Assembly (NCBI GenBank): GCA_017640605.1
Contig: JAEPQH010000001.1
Coordinates: 62,001-126,000 of the forward strand
From: Balneolaceae bacterium
Lineage (GTDB): Bacteria > Bacteroidota > Rhodothermia > Balneolales > Balneolaceae
Length of the DNA: 64,000 nucleotides
Direction: 5' to 3'
The notes under the pieces were generated by a model. The model worked only from the letters and a program-made list of their open reading frames with translations. It did no database searches and had not been told where the DNA came from. Below, in pieces: positions 31,093 through 37,547 of this stretch; positions within the stretch are counted from its first letter, which is position 1; each line of letters starts with the position of its first letter. The translations under genes were made by a program, and so were the position numbers.

Positions 31093-31569
31093 TCATCCAA
31101 AAAATGACTGTAAGAAATTATACAATTGAATTGCCGTTGATTCAATTTTTGCCCAATTGAAATAGCTTAAAAGTCCGATTAATTGGCCAATCCAGGTGAA
31201 AATAACAGACGGTAAGCGAGTGATGGTGTGACTTTTCTTTCTTAATTCAGAAGTAAACTTTTCGACAACATCACCGTCTAAATCTTCCATTTTTTGATGA
31301 TGGATATAGATTGAAATATCTCCGGTAAAATACATGATGGCACTTAAACCGTGAGTTTGGGCAAACCTATTCAACTCTACTCGTTGGGTTCTCATCAGTT
31401 TCCAGAATTCTTTTAAAGCCTTAGCTGCTCTTATCCAGAAAATGGGATTTATGCTTTGCAATAAAACATCCCCATATTTTAAAATGGGAAACGGGATTAG
31501 TCGATTGACTCTAGGAATGAGTCTTTTTCGAAAAATTCTCAAGCTTTCTTTTTGAGCGGATTTGTTCAT
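31093..31569 (-). CDS. Unknown protein E of five-gene operon
   Basis: A 158-residue protein that I do not recognise. The N-terminal ~60 residues are basic and amphipathic (LRIFRKRLIPRVNRLIPFPI), the middle contains LSAIMYFTGDISIYI (75-89) and MEDLDGDVVEKFTSEL (94-109), and the C-terminus is hydrophobic (LPSVIFTWIGQLIGLLSYFN), possibly membrane-seeking. FTGDISI and DGD match motifs in other operon members (FSGNFNI and DGD in protein A). Its ATG overlaps the stop of protein D by 4 bp, so translation is coupled. Last gene of the operon; no strong terminator was found after it. Confidence 0.7.
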   Translation of the reverse strand: MNKSAQKESLRIFRKRLIPRVNRLIPFPILKYGDVLLQSINPIFWIRAAKALKEFWKLMRTQRVELNRFAQTHGLSAIMYFTGDISIYIHHQKMEDLDGDVVEKFTSELRKKSHTITRLPSVIFTWIGQLIGLLSYFNWAKIESTAIQLYNFLQSFFG

Positions 31570-32531
31570 CGCTTCTTTAACACATTATGCAGCAGCGACA
31601 TCAACGCATCAAAAATCTTTTCCCAGAAATCTACCGATATGCGAATGGAGGTATTATGGATGTCGAGGATAAATTGCTGGGGTTCCTCGCTAAATGACTG
31701 TGTTAAACGTGTGGTGATGTCGCCATCCATTCCGATTCTGGTTTGCATCAAAATTTTCTCAACGCCAATATCGATTGACTTTCGAAGTGAAAGCCGGTGC
31801 CTTAAATCAAACTGAAAATTCTCGGTATTATCCTGAAATTTAACCGGATCGGTTTCTACCCAGTTATAGCCGTCCGGTTCATGAGGTTTTAACTCCAAAT
31901 AACGATTCATCAACCCCAATAAATGCTCTTTGGTAGTTTCCGGAAACGTTGATAACTGTTCTACCTCTTTGAAATACGGGTGTAAATTCTGCCCTTCTTT
32001 AGTCCCGATTTCTTCTTCTTTTATGGAATCTTTCACGATTCCACCTTCCAGAATTTTAAATCCATCTCGTTCTTTGAAGAAATGCGCCTCTATCATCTTA
32101 GACATTTCCAGACACTTTGCTGCAATTCGTTTTAGCTGATATTGATCGTCTATTCTTTCGGATTCTTCGTTGATCAGATACTCGTCATAATCTTCCAGCC
32201 ATTCATCTGCATATCGTGCCCAAATTCCGATCTCACGAAAGGAAAACACTCCACCACCTTTAAAAATGCTGACTCGACGAAATAGGTTTGCCTCATCGGA
32301 CATGGTTTTCACCACTTTCTGATAGAACTCGCTTTCCTCCGACAAACATTTAGCATATCGATTCCCAAGCCGTTCAAGCTCACTGGAATAAATCCCTGCC
32401 AATTTATACAGCGCTTCTTTATCATCGTCGGGTTGTTTTCCGCCGGTCATGCTTCGCTTTACAATTGTATTTATCTCAAGCGTTGTGAGGTCTTCGGCGG
32501 TACGAATTACCTTTTCAATATGCTTAGCCAT
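31566..32531 (-). CDS. Unknown protein D of five-gene operon
   Basis: A 321-residue soluble, mostly helical protein with no recognised family. It starts with AEDLTTLEINTIV (12-24), nearly the same as NLTTLEIKTIVG in protein C, and ends with MDGDITTRLTQSFSEEPQQF (268 on), nearly the same as SGDITTRITPNF in protein C. Between them lies an insertion of ~230 residues rich in charged helices (EAHFFKERDGFKILEGGIV, HRLSLRKSIDIGVEKILMQT). So D looks like protein C with a large inserted domain. The C-terminal 30 residues (VDFWEKIFDALMSLLHNVLK) form an amphipathic helix. Starts 5 bp after the stop of C. Confidence 0.72.
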   Translation of the reverse strand: MAKHIEKVIRTAEDLTTLEINTIVKRSMTGGKQPDDDKEALYKLAGIYSSELERLGNRYAKCLSEESEFYQKVVKTMSDEANLFRRVSIFKGGGVFSFREIGIWARYADEWLEDYDEYLINEESERIDDQYQLKRIAAKCLEMSKMIEAHFFKERDGFKILEGGIVKDSIKEEEIGTKEGQNLHPYFKEVEQLSTFPETTKEHLLGLMNRYLELKPHEPDGYNWVETDPVKFQDNTENFQFDLRHRLSLRKSIDIGVEKILMQTRIGMDGDITTRLTQSFSEEPQQFILDIHNTSIRISVDFWEKIFDALMSLLHNVLKKR

Positions 32532-32536
32532 TCAGC

Positions 32537-32920
32537 TTATGTATCCTCGTTTAGCTTGTCGTCGTTATTTAGCAAGCTTACCAAGGTTGTGCCGATTTCC
32601 TTAACCACCTGCAGGTTCTTCCGAACGATTTCCTGTCCCTGATTTTCCTTAACCAGATGGTATTCCATCAGCTGCGCATAATTCTTTCCAAAATTCGGGG
32701 TGATTCGTGTGGTGATATCACCTGAAACCAACTGTACTTTGCTGACTATACCTTCTAAATCGCCTGAAGGTGGTTTCAGACTTCCATCTTTTTCAAATTC
32801 AATGGCACCAACGATGGTTTTGATTTCCAATGTTGTCAAATTTTTCACACCATCTTTAGCGTTATCAAGAAAATCCTGAATCGCTTTTTTCGATGTACTT
32901 TCCCCTGTTGTTCCGGCCAT
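32537..32920 (-). CDS. Unknown protein C of five-gene operon
   Basis: The ATG at 32920 gives MAGTTGESTSKKAIQDFLDN (127 residues); a longer start at 33007 overlaps the upstream gene and is rejected. Motif 1 NLTTLEIKTIVG is at 27-38 and motif 2 SGDITTRIT at 66-74, both shared with protein D. The C-terminal half is a predicted helix (YHLVKENQGQEIVRKNLQVV). No signal peptide or membrane segment. Family not recognised. It lies 8 bp after gene B and 5 bp before gene D. Confidence 0.72.
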   Translation of the reverse strand: MAGTTGESTSKKAIQDFLDNAKDGVKNLTTLEIKTIVGAIEFEKDGSLKPPSGDLEGIVSKVQLVSGDITTRITPNFGKNYAQLMEYHLVKENQGQEIVRKNLQVVKEIGTTLVSLLNNDDKLNEDT

Positions 32921-32928
32921 AATAACTC

Positions 32929-34569
32929 CTATTGTTGATAGATTAATTGATGTTTTTGATATAATACTCGTGTGGCTTTTGCCAATTGCAGGATTAGAAT
33001 GGGCCATCCTACAAATCCTTTTATCATAAACTTCAGAAGCTTTAGTACTTCGCCTACAATGGCTACACTAAACTGAGAACTGCGCTGAACTTCCCGTACT
33101 TTTCGTTTATGCTGATGGATACCTTCGATTGAAAGTTCATTATCAAAAATGGATAAGGTATCGCCCATAAATTCGCTATGACTTAGCGCTACTTTTCGGT
33201 CAAATTCACTTACAATAGGCAACCTTCCAATTATGTATTTAATGCCTTGAATGAATGATTTGAGAGCACGTTTCCCATATTCGAGTACTCGTTTGAAAAA
33301 GTCTTTAAGCTGATTAAATATCTTTTTCAGGTGATGAAGAATCGTTTTTACCAATCGCTTGCCTATTCGAAACAGTTTTTTGAGAAAGCTTCGAATACCA
33401 AAATAGATTCGCTTACCTACTCCCATTTTTTGTTTCTGCTGATCTTGGGAAAGCTCAATTTTAGCGGAACTCAACACCTTCGATAAATTATCCTCAAAAG
33501 TTCGTTTTTCAGATTCTTTTAGTCTACCGGATTGGATAGTGAGTTTTTTGATTAGTTCTTCATCCATCGTTTCGGGCACTTGCTCAATTACATACCTTTT
33601 GATTAATGAAAGTGCATTAAACACGAAATAGCCATCCCCTATGTAATACAACACCGAATCGAGATTCAACTCGTTCTTGGAGGCAGCATTGTAGAACTTC
33701 AGTAAATCAGCGATTGAATTCAGACTCACACTCCCAATCTCCCCGTCTGTTTTCCCATCATAAAACCCATCCATCCATTGGTGAACTTGCAGCACTTTGA
33801 TGATAAAATTAGTGAGTTCGTCGGTACTTCTACCCTTCACATATTCCCATTTTACATCTTTAGATTTTCTAGGCAAAATATCACGCTTAAAACCTGCGAG
33901 GTATCGAGGCTTAAAGTCAAAATCCGTACTTAAATGATTATAAAAATCTCTTGCCGATCTAAGTTTTTTGGGATCAAACTCGAGCGTATTAAATGCTGAC
34001 TTTGCGATATGTATAAACATTAAACAGCGCTCTTTTCCATATATCGAAAGAATACGCTTTAGAACCCCTTCTTTGTTGGCTAATGCATTCACGGCATCCA
34101 AACCATTCTGCAAGGCTAAATAATGTTTTAAGGACTGAATTGCATTAACTGAGACGAATCCAAAAGCTCGAGTGGCGTCAAAATTGTATAAACCATACAT
34201 CAAAAGGCGATAATGCAGGATTCTTGAACTCAATGAAAGCTCACCCATTTCCGGTAATTTTCTTAGAGCAATCCCTTCGTCTAAATCCATTAATTTCCGA
34301 AGCATTTCTTCGGCTAAATCTTCACTATACAATGCTCTTAAAGAGTTTATTGCATTGTCAGAAAACAACTTAGATTGTATAAGATCATACTCGAATTCTT
34401 CCAGAGCTTTCTGATAGGTTGATTCCTTATTAATCACATTGAACGGAAGCTGTGAGAGATATCCTAAATCACGTAAATGTTGAATTATCTCTGCTGAGTC
34501 ATCTCCGAAATCAGCAACTTGTTGTTCGGCTTCTTTTAGTAATAGGTCAAGATGTTCTGAGCTGGCCAT
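32929..34569 (-). CDS. Unknown protein B of five-gene operon, peptidoglycan-binding-like repeats plus cationic amphipathic region
   Basis: A 546-residue protein, no signal peptide. Two or three segments resemble peptidoglycan-binding (PGBD-1-like) repeats: EIIQHLRDLGYLSQ followed by YQKALEEFEYDL (27-63), and VLQVHQWMDGFYDGKTDGEI then SLNSIADLLKFYN (259-294). Residues 382-450 are strikingly basic and amphipathic (KRIYFGIRSFLKKLFRIGKR, LVKTILHHLKKIFNQLKDFF), with about 19 Lys/Arg and two or three acidic residues. A hydrophobic stretch near the C-terminus (LLKFMIKGFVGWPILILQLA) follows. This could mean binding to cell wall and insertion into or lying on a membrane. PGBD similarity is weak and judged by eye. 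It is the largest member of the operon. Confidence 0.7.
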   Translation of the reverse strand: MASSEHLDLLLKEAEQQVADFGDDSAEIIQHLRDLGYLSQLPFNVINKESTYQKALEEFEYDLIQSKLFSDNAINSLRALYSEDLAEEMLRKLMDLDEGIALRKLPEMGELSLSSRILHYRLLMYGLYNFDATRAFGFVSVNAIQSLKHYLALQNGLDAVNALANKEGVLKRILSIYGKERCLMFIHIAKSAFNTLEFDPKKLRSARDFYNHLSTDFDFKPRYLAGFKRDILPRKSKDVKWEYVKGRSTDELTNFIIKVLQVHQWMDGFYDGKTDGEIGSVSLNSIADLLKFYNAASKNELNLDSVLYYIGDGYFVFNALSLIKRYVIEQVPETMDEELIKKLTIQSGRLKESEKRTFEDNLSKVLSSAKIELSQDQQKQKMGVGKRIYFGIRSFLKKLFRIGKRLVKTILHHLKKIFNQLKDFFKRVLEYGKRALKSFIQGIKYIIGRLPIVSEFDRKVALSHSEFMGDTLSIFDNELSIEGIHQHKRKVREVQRSSQFSVAIVGEVLKLLKFMIKGFVGWPILILQLAKATRVLYQKHQLIYQQ

Positions 34570-34581
34570 TCACCTTTTGGC

Positions 34582-34947
34582 TTACACCAACCCTTTAATC
34601 ATATCTACGATGGCTTTGCGTGAATTCTGACTCGCCTCAATCATTTCGCGGTGGAATTTCACCAATTCCATTTGCTCGCTACTCAGATTTTCTTTCACAA
34701 TATTTACCTGATCGCCGTCCAATTTTATGGTTGAGTAAGCAACTACATTCAATTCTGCATTTACATCGGCTTTCATGCTGTTCAGCACTTTTTCCAGATC
34801 GAATTTATTCTGATCATTTCCGATAACATCGCCAACTTTGATGTTGAAATTGCCTGAAAATGTCACCACATCCAGCGAAACAGCATCGTTTACTTTATCA
34901 GCGATATTCGATTTCAGGTTTTCGAATGCTTTTTTTAGATCAGCCAT
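34582..34947 (-). CDS. Unknown protein A of five-gene operon
   Basis: The ATG at 34947 gives MADLKKAFENLKSNIADKVN (121 residues); the longer frame to 35022 adds an unlikely leader. SLDVVTFSGNFNIKVGD (24-40) resembles LSAIMYFTGDISIYI in protein E, and LNVVAYSTIKLDGDQVNIV (66-84) carries the shared DGD motif. The C-terminal helix MELVKFHREMIEASQNSRKA aligns by position with the tails of C and D. First gene of the operon, 12 bp before gene B. Soluble; family not recognised. Confidence 0.72.
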   Translation of the reverse strand: MADLKKAFENLKSNIADKVNDAVSLDVVTFSGNFNIKVGDVIGNDQNKFDLEKVLNSMKADVNAELNVVAYSTIKLDGDQVNIVKENLSSEQMELVKFHREMIEASQNSRKAIVDMIKGLV

Positions 34948-35656: not shown

Positions 35657-36799
35657 ATGTTCAAAAAAACAGCATTACTCCTGATCATTGCTTTTTGTCA
35701 GGTTTCACTCACATTTGCACAAACTGAATCACTAAAATTCATCATTCGGGTTGATGATATTTTAAATCGAAATACTACCATTCTTCCTCGATCTATTGTT
35801 CCATTTCAGGATAGCGTGGAATCACGCGGAGGCAAAGTAACTTGGGGTGTAATTCCACATCGGTTGATAGAAACAGCTAATGTCGATGGCGTTCTTGCCG
35901 AAGAATTAAAAGCTACCATTACGCGCGGACATGAAGTCTCGGTTCATGGGTTCGATCATATTTGTAATCGATGCGAAAGTACACCTCGTGCAGCCTTTTG
36001 GGGACATGAGATGTATTGTACCACACACAATGAGGCTTTCACCAAGGCTGAACAAACAGCACTAATTCAAGACGGGTTGGCCTTGTTTGCCGAACATCTG
36101 GATTTTGTACCAACCTCGTTTATTCCTCCCGGACATGTAACCGATGCCACTACCTTTGAAGTGCTTTCTGATTTCAATTTAACCTCGTTTTCTGATGATA
36201 CAGAAGCACAATTCATGACCAACAATGTGTTCAACTTTCCAATAAATGAAGAATATACTTGGGCATTATCGCAGGAAATGTATCAACAGAACTTAGACAG
36301 TGCGTTGGCTGACATTAAAATGGCGGCTTCAGAAACCGGTATTTACGGATTAATGCTGCACGATCATTTTACCAGAAGTGGATACTCGAACGGTATTGTA
36401 CTCGACTGGATGGTTGAATTGATGGATTCTTTAAACCACTATTACGGCGATAACATCGAATACCTGACGCTTTCTGAAGCGGTTGAAAGCATTAAAGGTC
36501 AGTTTGTTTCGGTAGAAGAAGCATCTGAAGAAATTGCTGATTTCCAACTACATCAAAATTATCCAAACCCCTTTAATCCAGCTACCACAATTAGTTTCAC
36601 GCTGGAAAAAGCATCTCGGGTGAAGTTGCTGGTGTTTGATATTCAGGGAAGAGTGGTGAGCGCTTTAATCAATCAAAGCTTTAGTGCAGGAAATCATCAG
36701 ATTCCGTTTAATGCCGGTAACTTACCGTCGGGACAATATTTCTACTCATTAACCGCCGGTGGACAAACTACTACCAAATCGATGACTTTGATTAAGTGA
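35657..36799 (+). CDS. Secreted polysaccharide-deacetylase-like (DUF2334) protein with T9SS sorting domain
   Basis: The ATG at 35657 gives MFKKTALLLIIAFCQVSLTF and a signal peptide; a TTG two codons upstream is less likely. The domain of ~270 residues has NodB/DUF2334 features: IIRVDDIL (Asp-Asp metal site), WGVIPH, and GHEVSVHGFDH (His-x4-His-like), with IYGLMLHDHFTRSG near its end. Such enzymes remove acetyl groups from polysaccharides; the true substrate is unknown. The last ~80 residues are a type A T9SS sorting domain (LHQNYPNPFNPATTISF, ending MTLIK). Its 3' end overlaps the convergent transposase gene by 8 bp. Confidence 0.85.
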   Translation: MFKKTALLLIIAFCQVSLTFAQTESLKFIIRVDDILNRNTTILPRSIVPFQDSVESRGGKVTWGVIPHRLIETANVDGVLAEELKATITRGHEVSVHGFDHICNRCESTPRAAFWGHEMYCTTHNEAFTKAEQTALIQDGLALFAEHLDFVPTSFIPPGHVTDATTFEVLSDFNLTSFSDDTEAQFMTNNVFNFPINEEYTWALSQEMYQQNLDSALADIKMAASETGIYGLMLHDHFTRSGYSNGIVLDWMVELMDSLNHYYGDNIEYLTLSEAVESIKGQFVSVEEASEEIADFQLHQNYPNPFNPATTISFTLEKASRVKLLVFDIQGRVVSALINQSFSAGNHQIPFNAGNLPSGQYFYSLTAGGQTTTKSMTLIK

Positions 36800-37547
36800 A
36801 TCTGCTAAATCGATCTTCACCCCATTTTCTGGGATTAGATTGTATGTAGAATCTGATTTGATTTAATGCATCTTCATTGCGGATAATATGCTCGTAATAA
36901 TTGCGGTGCCATACCGGAATGCCTTTCACTTTCCGACTCTTATTTATATTTGTGGTTACAGCAGCTTTATATCCACGGATGATAGCCCCCAGATCTTTTG
37001 AAGGCGATCGGAATGAGCGCTTTTCGAATTGATTATTGATTTGATTTCCATTCGGAATATTTGGCTCTCTTTTATTGCTATGAGGCAGATTTCTTTTTGA
37101 GAGAGCAAGCAAATCGCTTTCGCCAGGCGCTTGCAAATTGCTTTTGGGGAGTATGGGCATATCGCGATTGGGGAGTACGGGCGTATCGCGATTAGGGAGT
37201 ACGGGCGTATCGCGATACGCCCGTACGATTTCATTTTCATTGCAATTTGCCTTTGCTGGATTTTGATCTTGCCTTTTATCAATAATCCGAATAATCCCAT
37301 GCATATGATTCGGCATGATTACAAATTCATCCAAGATTACATTATCTCTTATTTCTGATGTCTTGATCCATTCTCTCAGCGCAATTTCGCCAAAGGAGTT
37401 TAATTTCATAATTCCATCCTGCACCTCACCAAATATATGCTCCATATTCTTCGTGCAAATGGTGATAAAATAATAGCCTGGCCAAGCATAATTCCACGAA
37501 GCAAGGCGAATGGATTTCCGGTTTGGGTATTTATTCTTCATACCCAT
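36792..37547 (-). CDS. REP-associated tyrosine transposase (RAYT, Y1 transposase)
   Basis: A 251-residue single-strand DNA transposase-like protein. The opening SIRLASWNYAWPGYYFITIC is typical of the family, the HUH motif is IMPNHMHGII (His81, His83) and the likely catalytic Tyr is Tyr193 in IIRGYKAAV. RAYTs are domesticated IS200/IS605-like enzymes that act on REP palindromes carrying a GTAG or GGAG foot. Residues 112-135 are three copies of an 8-residue unit (RDTPVLPN) produced by a REP-like DNA array inside the gene. The region between HUH and Tyr is also longer than usual. Frame is intact, so it may be active. Confidence 0.93.
   Translation of the reverse strand: MGMKNKYPNRKSIRLASWNYAWPGYYFITICTKNMEHIFGEVQDGIMKLNSFGEIALREWIKTSEIRDNVILDEFVIMPNHMHGIIRIIDKRQDQNPAKANCNENEIVRAYRDTPVLPNRDTPVLPNRDMPILPKSNLQAPGESDLLALSKRNLPHSNKREPNIPNGNQINNQFEKRSFRSPSKDLGAIIRGYKAAVTTNINKSRKVKGIPVWHRNYYEHIIRNEDALNQIRFYIQSNPRKWGEDRFSRFT
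37147..37226 (+). repeat. Internal REP-like array inside the RAYT gene
   Basis: Three 24-bp units, each GGGAG + TAyGGGCrTATCGCG + linker, start at 37147, 37171 and 37195. The third continues into a 28-bp perfect palindrome (37199-37226, half GTACGGGCGTATCG) that is directly preceded by GGGA, giving a GGAG foot. The units keep the coding frame. Confidence 0.85.

Follow-up and report, generated by a model that had tools for sequence, protein, structure and literature searches.

A five-gene operon of Balneolaceae with a recurrent uncatalogued domain that probably acts on the cell envelope

In the networks built on effector-associated domains (EADs), small domains that are repeated within a system and fused to variable effectors link the latter to cores, and the partners of EAD1 include lysozyme-like and papain-like peptidoglycan enzymes (PMC7159879, eLife 2020). 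Another point of reference is provided by holin-endolysin systems and explosive cell lysis (PMC4834629, PMC8131026). By analogy, the EAD concept can be considered as the closest published logic, and holin-endolysin lysis as the closest known output, for the locus described here, a set of five genes (A to E) carried by a 64,000-nucleotide stretch of DNA from a Balneolaceae bacterium (the window).

As in the EAD networks, one domain is found in several members of the system (the products of A, C and D) and, in some relatives, fused to a putative effector, a C25-like peptidase. The locus differs from these networks by the absence of a STAND, MoxR-vWA or GTPase core from the operon, none being noticed at the related C-D-E loci read. 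Furthermore, the domain is predicted to adopt an alpha-beta-beta-beta-alpha arrangement and matches nothing in Pfam, NCBIfam or PADLOC, its comparison with the published EADs having been made through Pfam and NCBIfam only. As in holin-endolysin lysis, a membrane-active-looking protein is found, in some relatives, near a wall hydrolase without visible signal peptide, and the TIGR02594/CHAP-PGBD enzyme of a sister species (L005) is related to phage enzymes. However, four apparently paralogous domain proteins are found here, for which no phage counterpart was found, and the window copy has no hydrolase, whereas L005 and Sphingomonas natans (L015) have one and two other loci (L016 and L068) have one nearby.

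Globally, the cell envelope is the probable target of the five-gene set, since the domain recurs in at least three phyla beside wall-cutting or caspase-like enzymes, and it is perhaps a controlled lysis device. What were five 'hypothetical' genes can now be treated as a single, definable system, for which a common domain, a stable gene order and the distribution are described and whose parts can be tested.

The operon and its copy in a sister species

The operon (31093-34947, minus strand) consists of five adjacent ORFs transcribed in the order A-B-C-D-E and spaced by 12, 8, 5 and -4 bp (Table 1). The first-pass annotation had described it as five same-strand genes outside known families. The coordinates and spacing are confirmed by the ORFs and by L005 (Balneolaceae, Balneolota), which carries all five orthologues with order, reading frame and flanking neighbours kept. 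The absence of known families also held, none of the five proteins matching a Pfam, NCBIfam or PADLOC family above the cut-offs. Some weak Pfam matches, among them SUI1, dodecin and Est1, lie below the cut-off, are absent from the homologues and were rejected. A start of C at an upstream ATG, giving 156 aa, was dropped in favour of the ATG at 32920, which is preceded by AGGAG.

Table 1. Genes of the operon and features of protein B (positions in the window)
Feature	Position	Strand	Size or residues	Description	Basis
Gene A	34582..34947	-	121 aa	Paralogue of C, consisting of the shared domain alone	
Gene B	32929..34569	-	546 aa	Candidate effector directed at membrane and wall; signal peptide not seen	
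PGBD-like stretch of B	33691..33795	-	residues 259-293	Place aligned with the PF01471 match of the homologue L050	PF01471 match in L050
Basic amphipathic stretch of B	33214..33432	-	residues 380-452	Net charge +18	Hydrophobic moment versus shuffles
Gene C	32537..32920	-	127 aa	Shared domain, predicted alpha-beta-beta-beta-alpha	AlphaFold2
Gene D	31566..32531	-	321 aa	Apparent shared domain split by a helical insert of ~230 residues	hhalign, low-confidence model
Gene E	31093..31569	-	158 aa	Distant putative copy of the core of the domain (GD motif), with hydrophobic C-terminal segments	Profiles, hydropathy

The proteins of the window and of L005 are 88% (A), 71% (B), 87% (C), 91% (D) and 60% (E) identical, with dN values of 0.07-0.38 (0.07-0.09 for A, C and D, 0.24 for B and 0.38 for E). 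As order and frame are kept and dN/dS reaches only 0.03-0.20 for A, B, C and E (dS being saturated, and D not computable), the ORFs are genes under purifying selection; the faster evolution of B and E is expected of exposed or effector parts. The GC content of the operon is only slightly low (0.386 versus 0.413 +/- 0.015), and promoters and terminators are hardly more numerous there than in shuffles, so that they were left out of account. Near the operon, a gene at 36792-37547, also present in L005 (4884-5651), resembles, by eye, transposases of the REP-associated type (Y1) and carries internal peptide repeats RDTPVLPN.

An uncatalogued domain in A, C, D and, more weakly, E

According to profile comparisons, one and the same uncatalogued domain is present in A, C and D and, with weaker evidence, in E. 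Indeed, C and D have in common the motifs LTTLEIxTIV and GDITTR, and the C profile retrieves both A (E-value 6e-4) and D within the same genome. With hhalign, C aligns with A over 96 columns (E-value 8.6e-5) and with the C-terminal half of D over 57 columns (E-value 1e-5); for the pair formed by C and E, the GD motif alone is aligned. The homology of E to the three other proteins is weak: the profile of E homologues retrieves D members (E-values between roughly 1e-5 and 1e-3), and that of C retrieves the E gene of L057 (E-value 3e-4). Thr35, Asp68 and His88 (C numbering) are invariant across ten aligned A and C members. The AlphaFold2 model of C (mean pLDDT 81) displays a helix, three strands and a long helix. 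In the low-confidence model of D (pLDDT 47), a helix and a strand at the start and two strands and a helix at the end are separated by the helical insert.

Foldseek found no significant fold match among PDB and viral structures, and the C profile no convincing match among the sequences of solved structures. COMM domains also have three strands ahead of a helix, and COMMD proteins (human CCC complex 8f2r, bacterial COMMD-like 9q6c) are among the top Foldseek rows for C, but with non-significant scores (E-values of 0.2-0.3, TM-scores <=0.2). Comparison with PHROGs gave chance-level matches only, and homologues of C, D and B were not found in the viral contigs and phages searched. A match to C at an ESX locus of a Mycolicibacterium plasmid (E-value 0.3) was set aside as chance-like.

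Gene modules and their neighbours

Judging from their homologues, A-B and C-D-E are separate conserved sets, united here in one operon. The first-pass annotation had proposed that a conserved set of genes be sought amid variable neighbours; this is what was found for C-D-E and also for A-B, the latter in a single distant genome. The five-gene set that it had envisaged is whole in L005 but modular elsewhere.

The C-D-E triplet displays a conserved order in about a dozen genera, with neighbours that vary by genome. It is carried by plasmids and genomes of Azospirillum, among them Azospirillum brasilense Sp7 with the genes AMK58_RS24010 to RS24020, by S. natans, by Plasticicumulans, by a Thiomargarita-like MAG and by several alpha- and gammaproteobacteria. 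In each of the groups sampled it is rare, with 0.5-2% of the genomes, C being found in 2 of the 394 genomes of Balneolota, the phylum of the window (one genus only), in 2 of 369 from the class of L007, in 6 of 289 from the class of L016 and in 3 of 284 from a third phylum, where one of the three (L056) is a peptidase fusion. These matches indicate that the domain spans at least three bacterial phyla, and the sporadic occurrence of C-D-E fits transfer. The trees of C are poorly resolved and include an L014 row in the wrong frame, the sole hint used being that L006 and L007 are the nearest relatives; gene calls at high-GC loci are based on ORF length and third-position GC. Some copies are incomplete: L006 has C-D without E, and in L016 D is followed by a transposase-like gene and a weak E remnant only. 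Upstream of C-D in L016 (980-8572), several tandem genes share another uncatalogued domain (AIAEAQxxLD ... LGFxPTFYxFxDT), one of them with OmpA and one with PASTA.

The A-B set was found in the alphaproteobacterium G964 (locus L050), where A is directly followed by B and preceded by a gene encoding a PGBD-containing protein; the C-D-E set of this genome lies on a separate contig. The B proteins of the window and of L050 are 23% identical over residues 256-531 (E-value 2.7e-11), and B occurs in 1 of the 289 genomes sampled in the class of G964. In L055, from the third phylum, a divergently oriented A adjoins C-D-E, whose E is recognized by profile (E-value 2e-16). The presence of B after this A looked likely by eye, but the 113-residue fragment at the contig end is unsupported by the B profile and was discarded. 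Neither A of L055 nor B of L050 had a match among the plasmids searched. In two further genomes of the third phylum (L066:5624-8622 and L067:6618-9599), a TerB/LETM1-related gene, whose product in L066 is NF040639-like, is followed by A-like and E-like domain genes.

Among the loci read, genes encoding the domain are repeatedly close to wall hydrolases and C25-like peptidases. In L005 and L015, a CHAP/TIGR02594 gene with PG_binding_1 overlaps the end of E; relatives of the L005 hydrolase are found in 769 phage records. Downstream in L016 are genes encoding a GH19-like protein with a PGBD and a protein with a SLATT domain, and the genes of L068 are flanked by one for a VanY carboxypeptidase and one for a protein whose PGBD match falls below the threshold. 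As in phage endolysins, no signal peptide was discerned by eye in these hydrolases. At two loci, L056 and L068, a protein matching Peptidase_C25 weakly and below the cut-off (E-values 3.5e-4 and 9.7e-4, respectively) bears the domain as a C-terminal fusion. Close plasmid relatives of the fused peptidase part are annotated as C25 family cysteine peptidases, and relatives of this peptidase are found near CHAT proteins on plasmids. The majority of C-D-E loci have no nearby hydrolase. Where L005 has its hydrolase gene, the window species has 91 bp, and a search run without positive control detected no homologue of this hydrolase in the window genome. As this genome has neither an L005-type hydrolase nor a PF01471 protein, any lysis here would need B alone or B together with another hydrolase.

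Membrane and wall features, proposed mechanism and rival readings

The first-pass annotation had noticed in B a highly basic amphipathic stretch and weak PGBD-1-like repeats. The former proved robust: its mean hydrophobic moment is 0.71 versus 0.28 in shuffles, none of 1000 reaching 0.71, and B of L050 retains the feature despite an overall identity of 22%. As for the repeats, one weak copy stands through L050, whose B matches PF01471 (E-value 8.5e-4, 19.9 bits versus a cut-off of 23) at the aligned place; the further copies are unsupported, the window copy alone scores within shuffles, and PF01471 has no match in window B or in the whole window genome. E homologues have hydrophobic C-terminal segments according to hydropathy, which is moderate in the E of the window (best 19-residue mean 1.48, below usual transmembrane values). 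The envelope-directed, transferable system suggested earlier finds support in the amphipathic stretch of B, the C-termini of E homologues, the adjoining wall hydrolases and the sporadic spread, though the set is modular.

The reading that we tentatively prefer, at somewhat less than even chances, is that a complex of adaptor domains at the inner membrane controls a membrane- and wall-directed effector and leads to controlled lysis or wall opening. By pairing, the paralogous domains would form a hetero-oligomer, which the hydrophobic tail of E would hold at the cytoplasmic side of the inner membrane, D being its large soluble regulatory subunit. B would act as effector, entering the inner membrane through its hydrophobic end and its basic amphipathic helices and contacting peptidoglycan through its PGBD-like part. 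In relatives, the complex may be coupled to signal-less wall hydrolases (CHAP/TIGR02594, GH19-like, VanY) or, alternatively, to a C25-like (caspase-like) peptidase bearing the domain. After a trigger, the permeabilised membrane would let cytoplasmic hydrolases, or B itself, reach the wall, causing controlled lysis or local wall opening. Homotypic assembly of the domains, anchoring by E, insertion of B and the final output are all inferred; the logic would be that of the adaptors of EAD networks and the output holin-endolysin-like. A broader proposal appears somewhat unlikely: a new domain superfamily would build a hetero-oligomeric, membrane-anchored machine in at least three phyla, releasing cytoplasmic wall-cutting or caspase-like effectors in a phage-independent programmed lysis or death. 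If lysis is indeed the output, the system would represent a phage-independent self-opening of the bacterial envelope, tied in relatives to caspase-like peptidases, and would define a domain absent from the family libraries searched.

The same parts could form an envelope-stress or repair complex, in which a membrane-associated scaffold of the domain proteins would detect damage to the membrane or the wall, the hydrolases serving for remodelling and not for killing. The conservation of A, C and D, close to that of neighbouring housekeeping genes, the TerB/LETM1-related protein adjoining domain copies in L066 and, by similarity, L067, and PspA- and YjfI-like genes seen by eye a few kb downstream in L006 agree with such a role. 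However, the sporadic occurrence is unusual for an upkeep function, and the caspase-like peptidase fusions and phage-type endolysins suggest a harsher output; this explanation is unlikely.

An anti-phage or conflict system, in which infection would be sensed and an effector would abort the cell, lysis serving as abortive infection, seems more doubtful. It would account for the sporadic, mosaic distribution, for an adaptor-plus-effector logic resembling EADs (PMC7159879), for the SLATT-domain gene of L016 and for the proximity of C25 peptidase relatives to CHAT proteins. Against it, PADLOC models gave no match, an NTPase, cyclase or nuclease core is lacking, and defence genes are absent near most loci.

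A nucleoid or DNA function, the domain being a YbaB/EbfC-like DNA-binding fold, is very improbable. The top VIA-align row for the C model is 1ybx (Z 6.0, rmsd 5.0, 87 residues), which we take to be a YbaB-family protein; the modelled order of secondary-structure elements is that of YbaB/EbfC, and ParA/ParB-like genes precede C-D-E in Azospirillum. However, a Z below 8 may reflect a common arrangement, hhalign against a single YbaB detects no sequence similarity, the gene context differs, the acidic proteins A, C and D have net charges of -4, -4 and -13, respectively, and such a function fits poorly with the hydrophobic E and the wall hydrolases. Antagonism by exported proteins attacking neighbouring cells is the most improbable reading: wall hydrolases and a membrane-active-looking B are typical toxin activities, but neither signal peptide, secretion tag, injection machinery nor immunity gene was seen at the loci read.

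In L040 (15600-18900), a CRISPR-like repeat array and a possible CRISPR-associated gene were seen by eye ~7 kb from C-D-E. In two gammaproteobacterial MAGs (L007:9026-9574 and L006:6119-6673), an uncatalogued gene encoding 182-184 aa (MQMSF..EFRxWLTRRYVKLLW) lies directly upstream of C.
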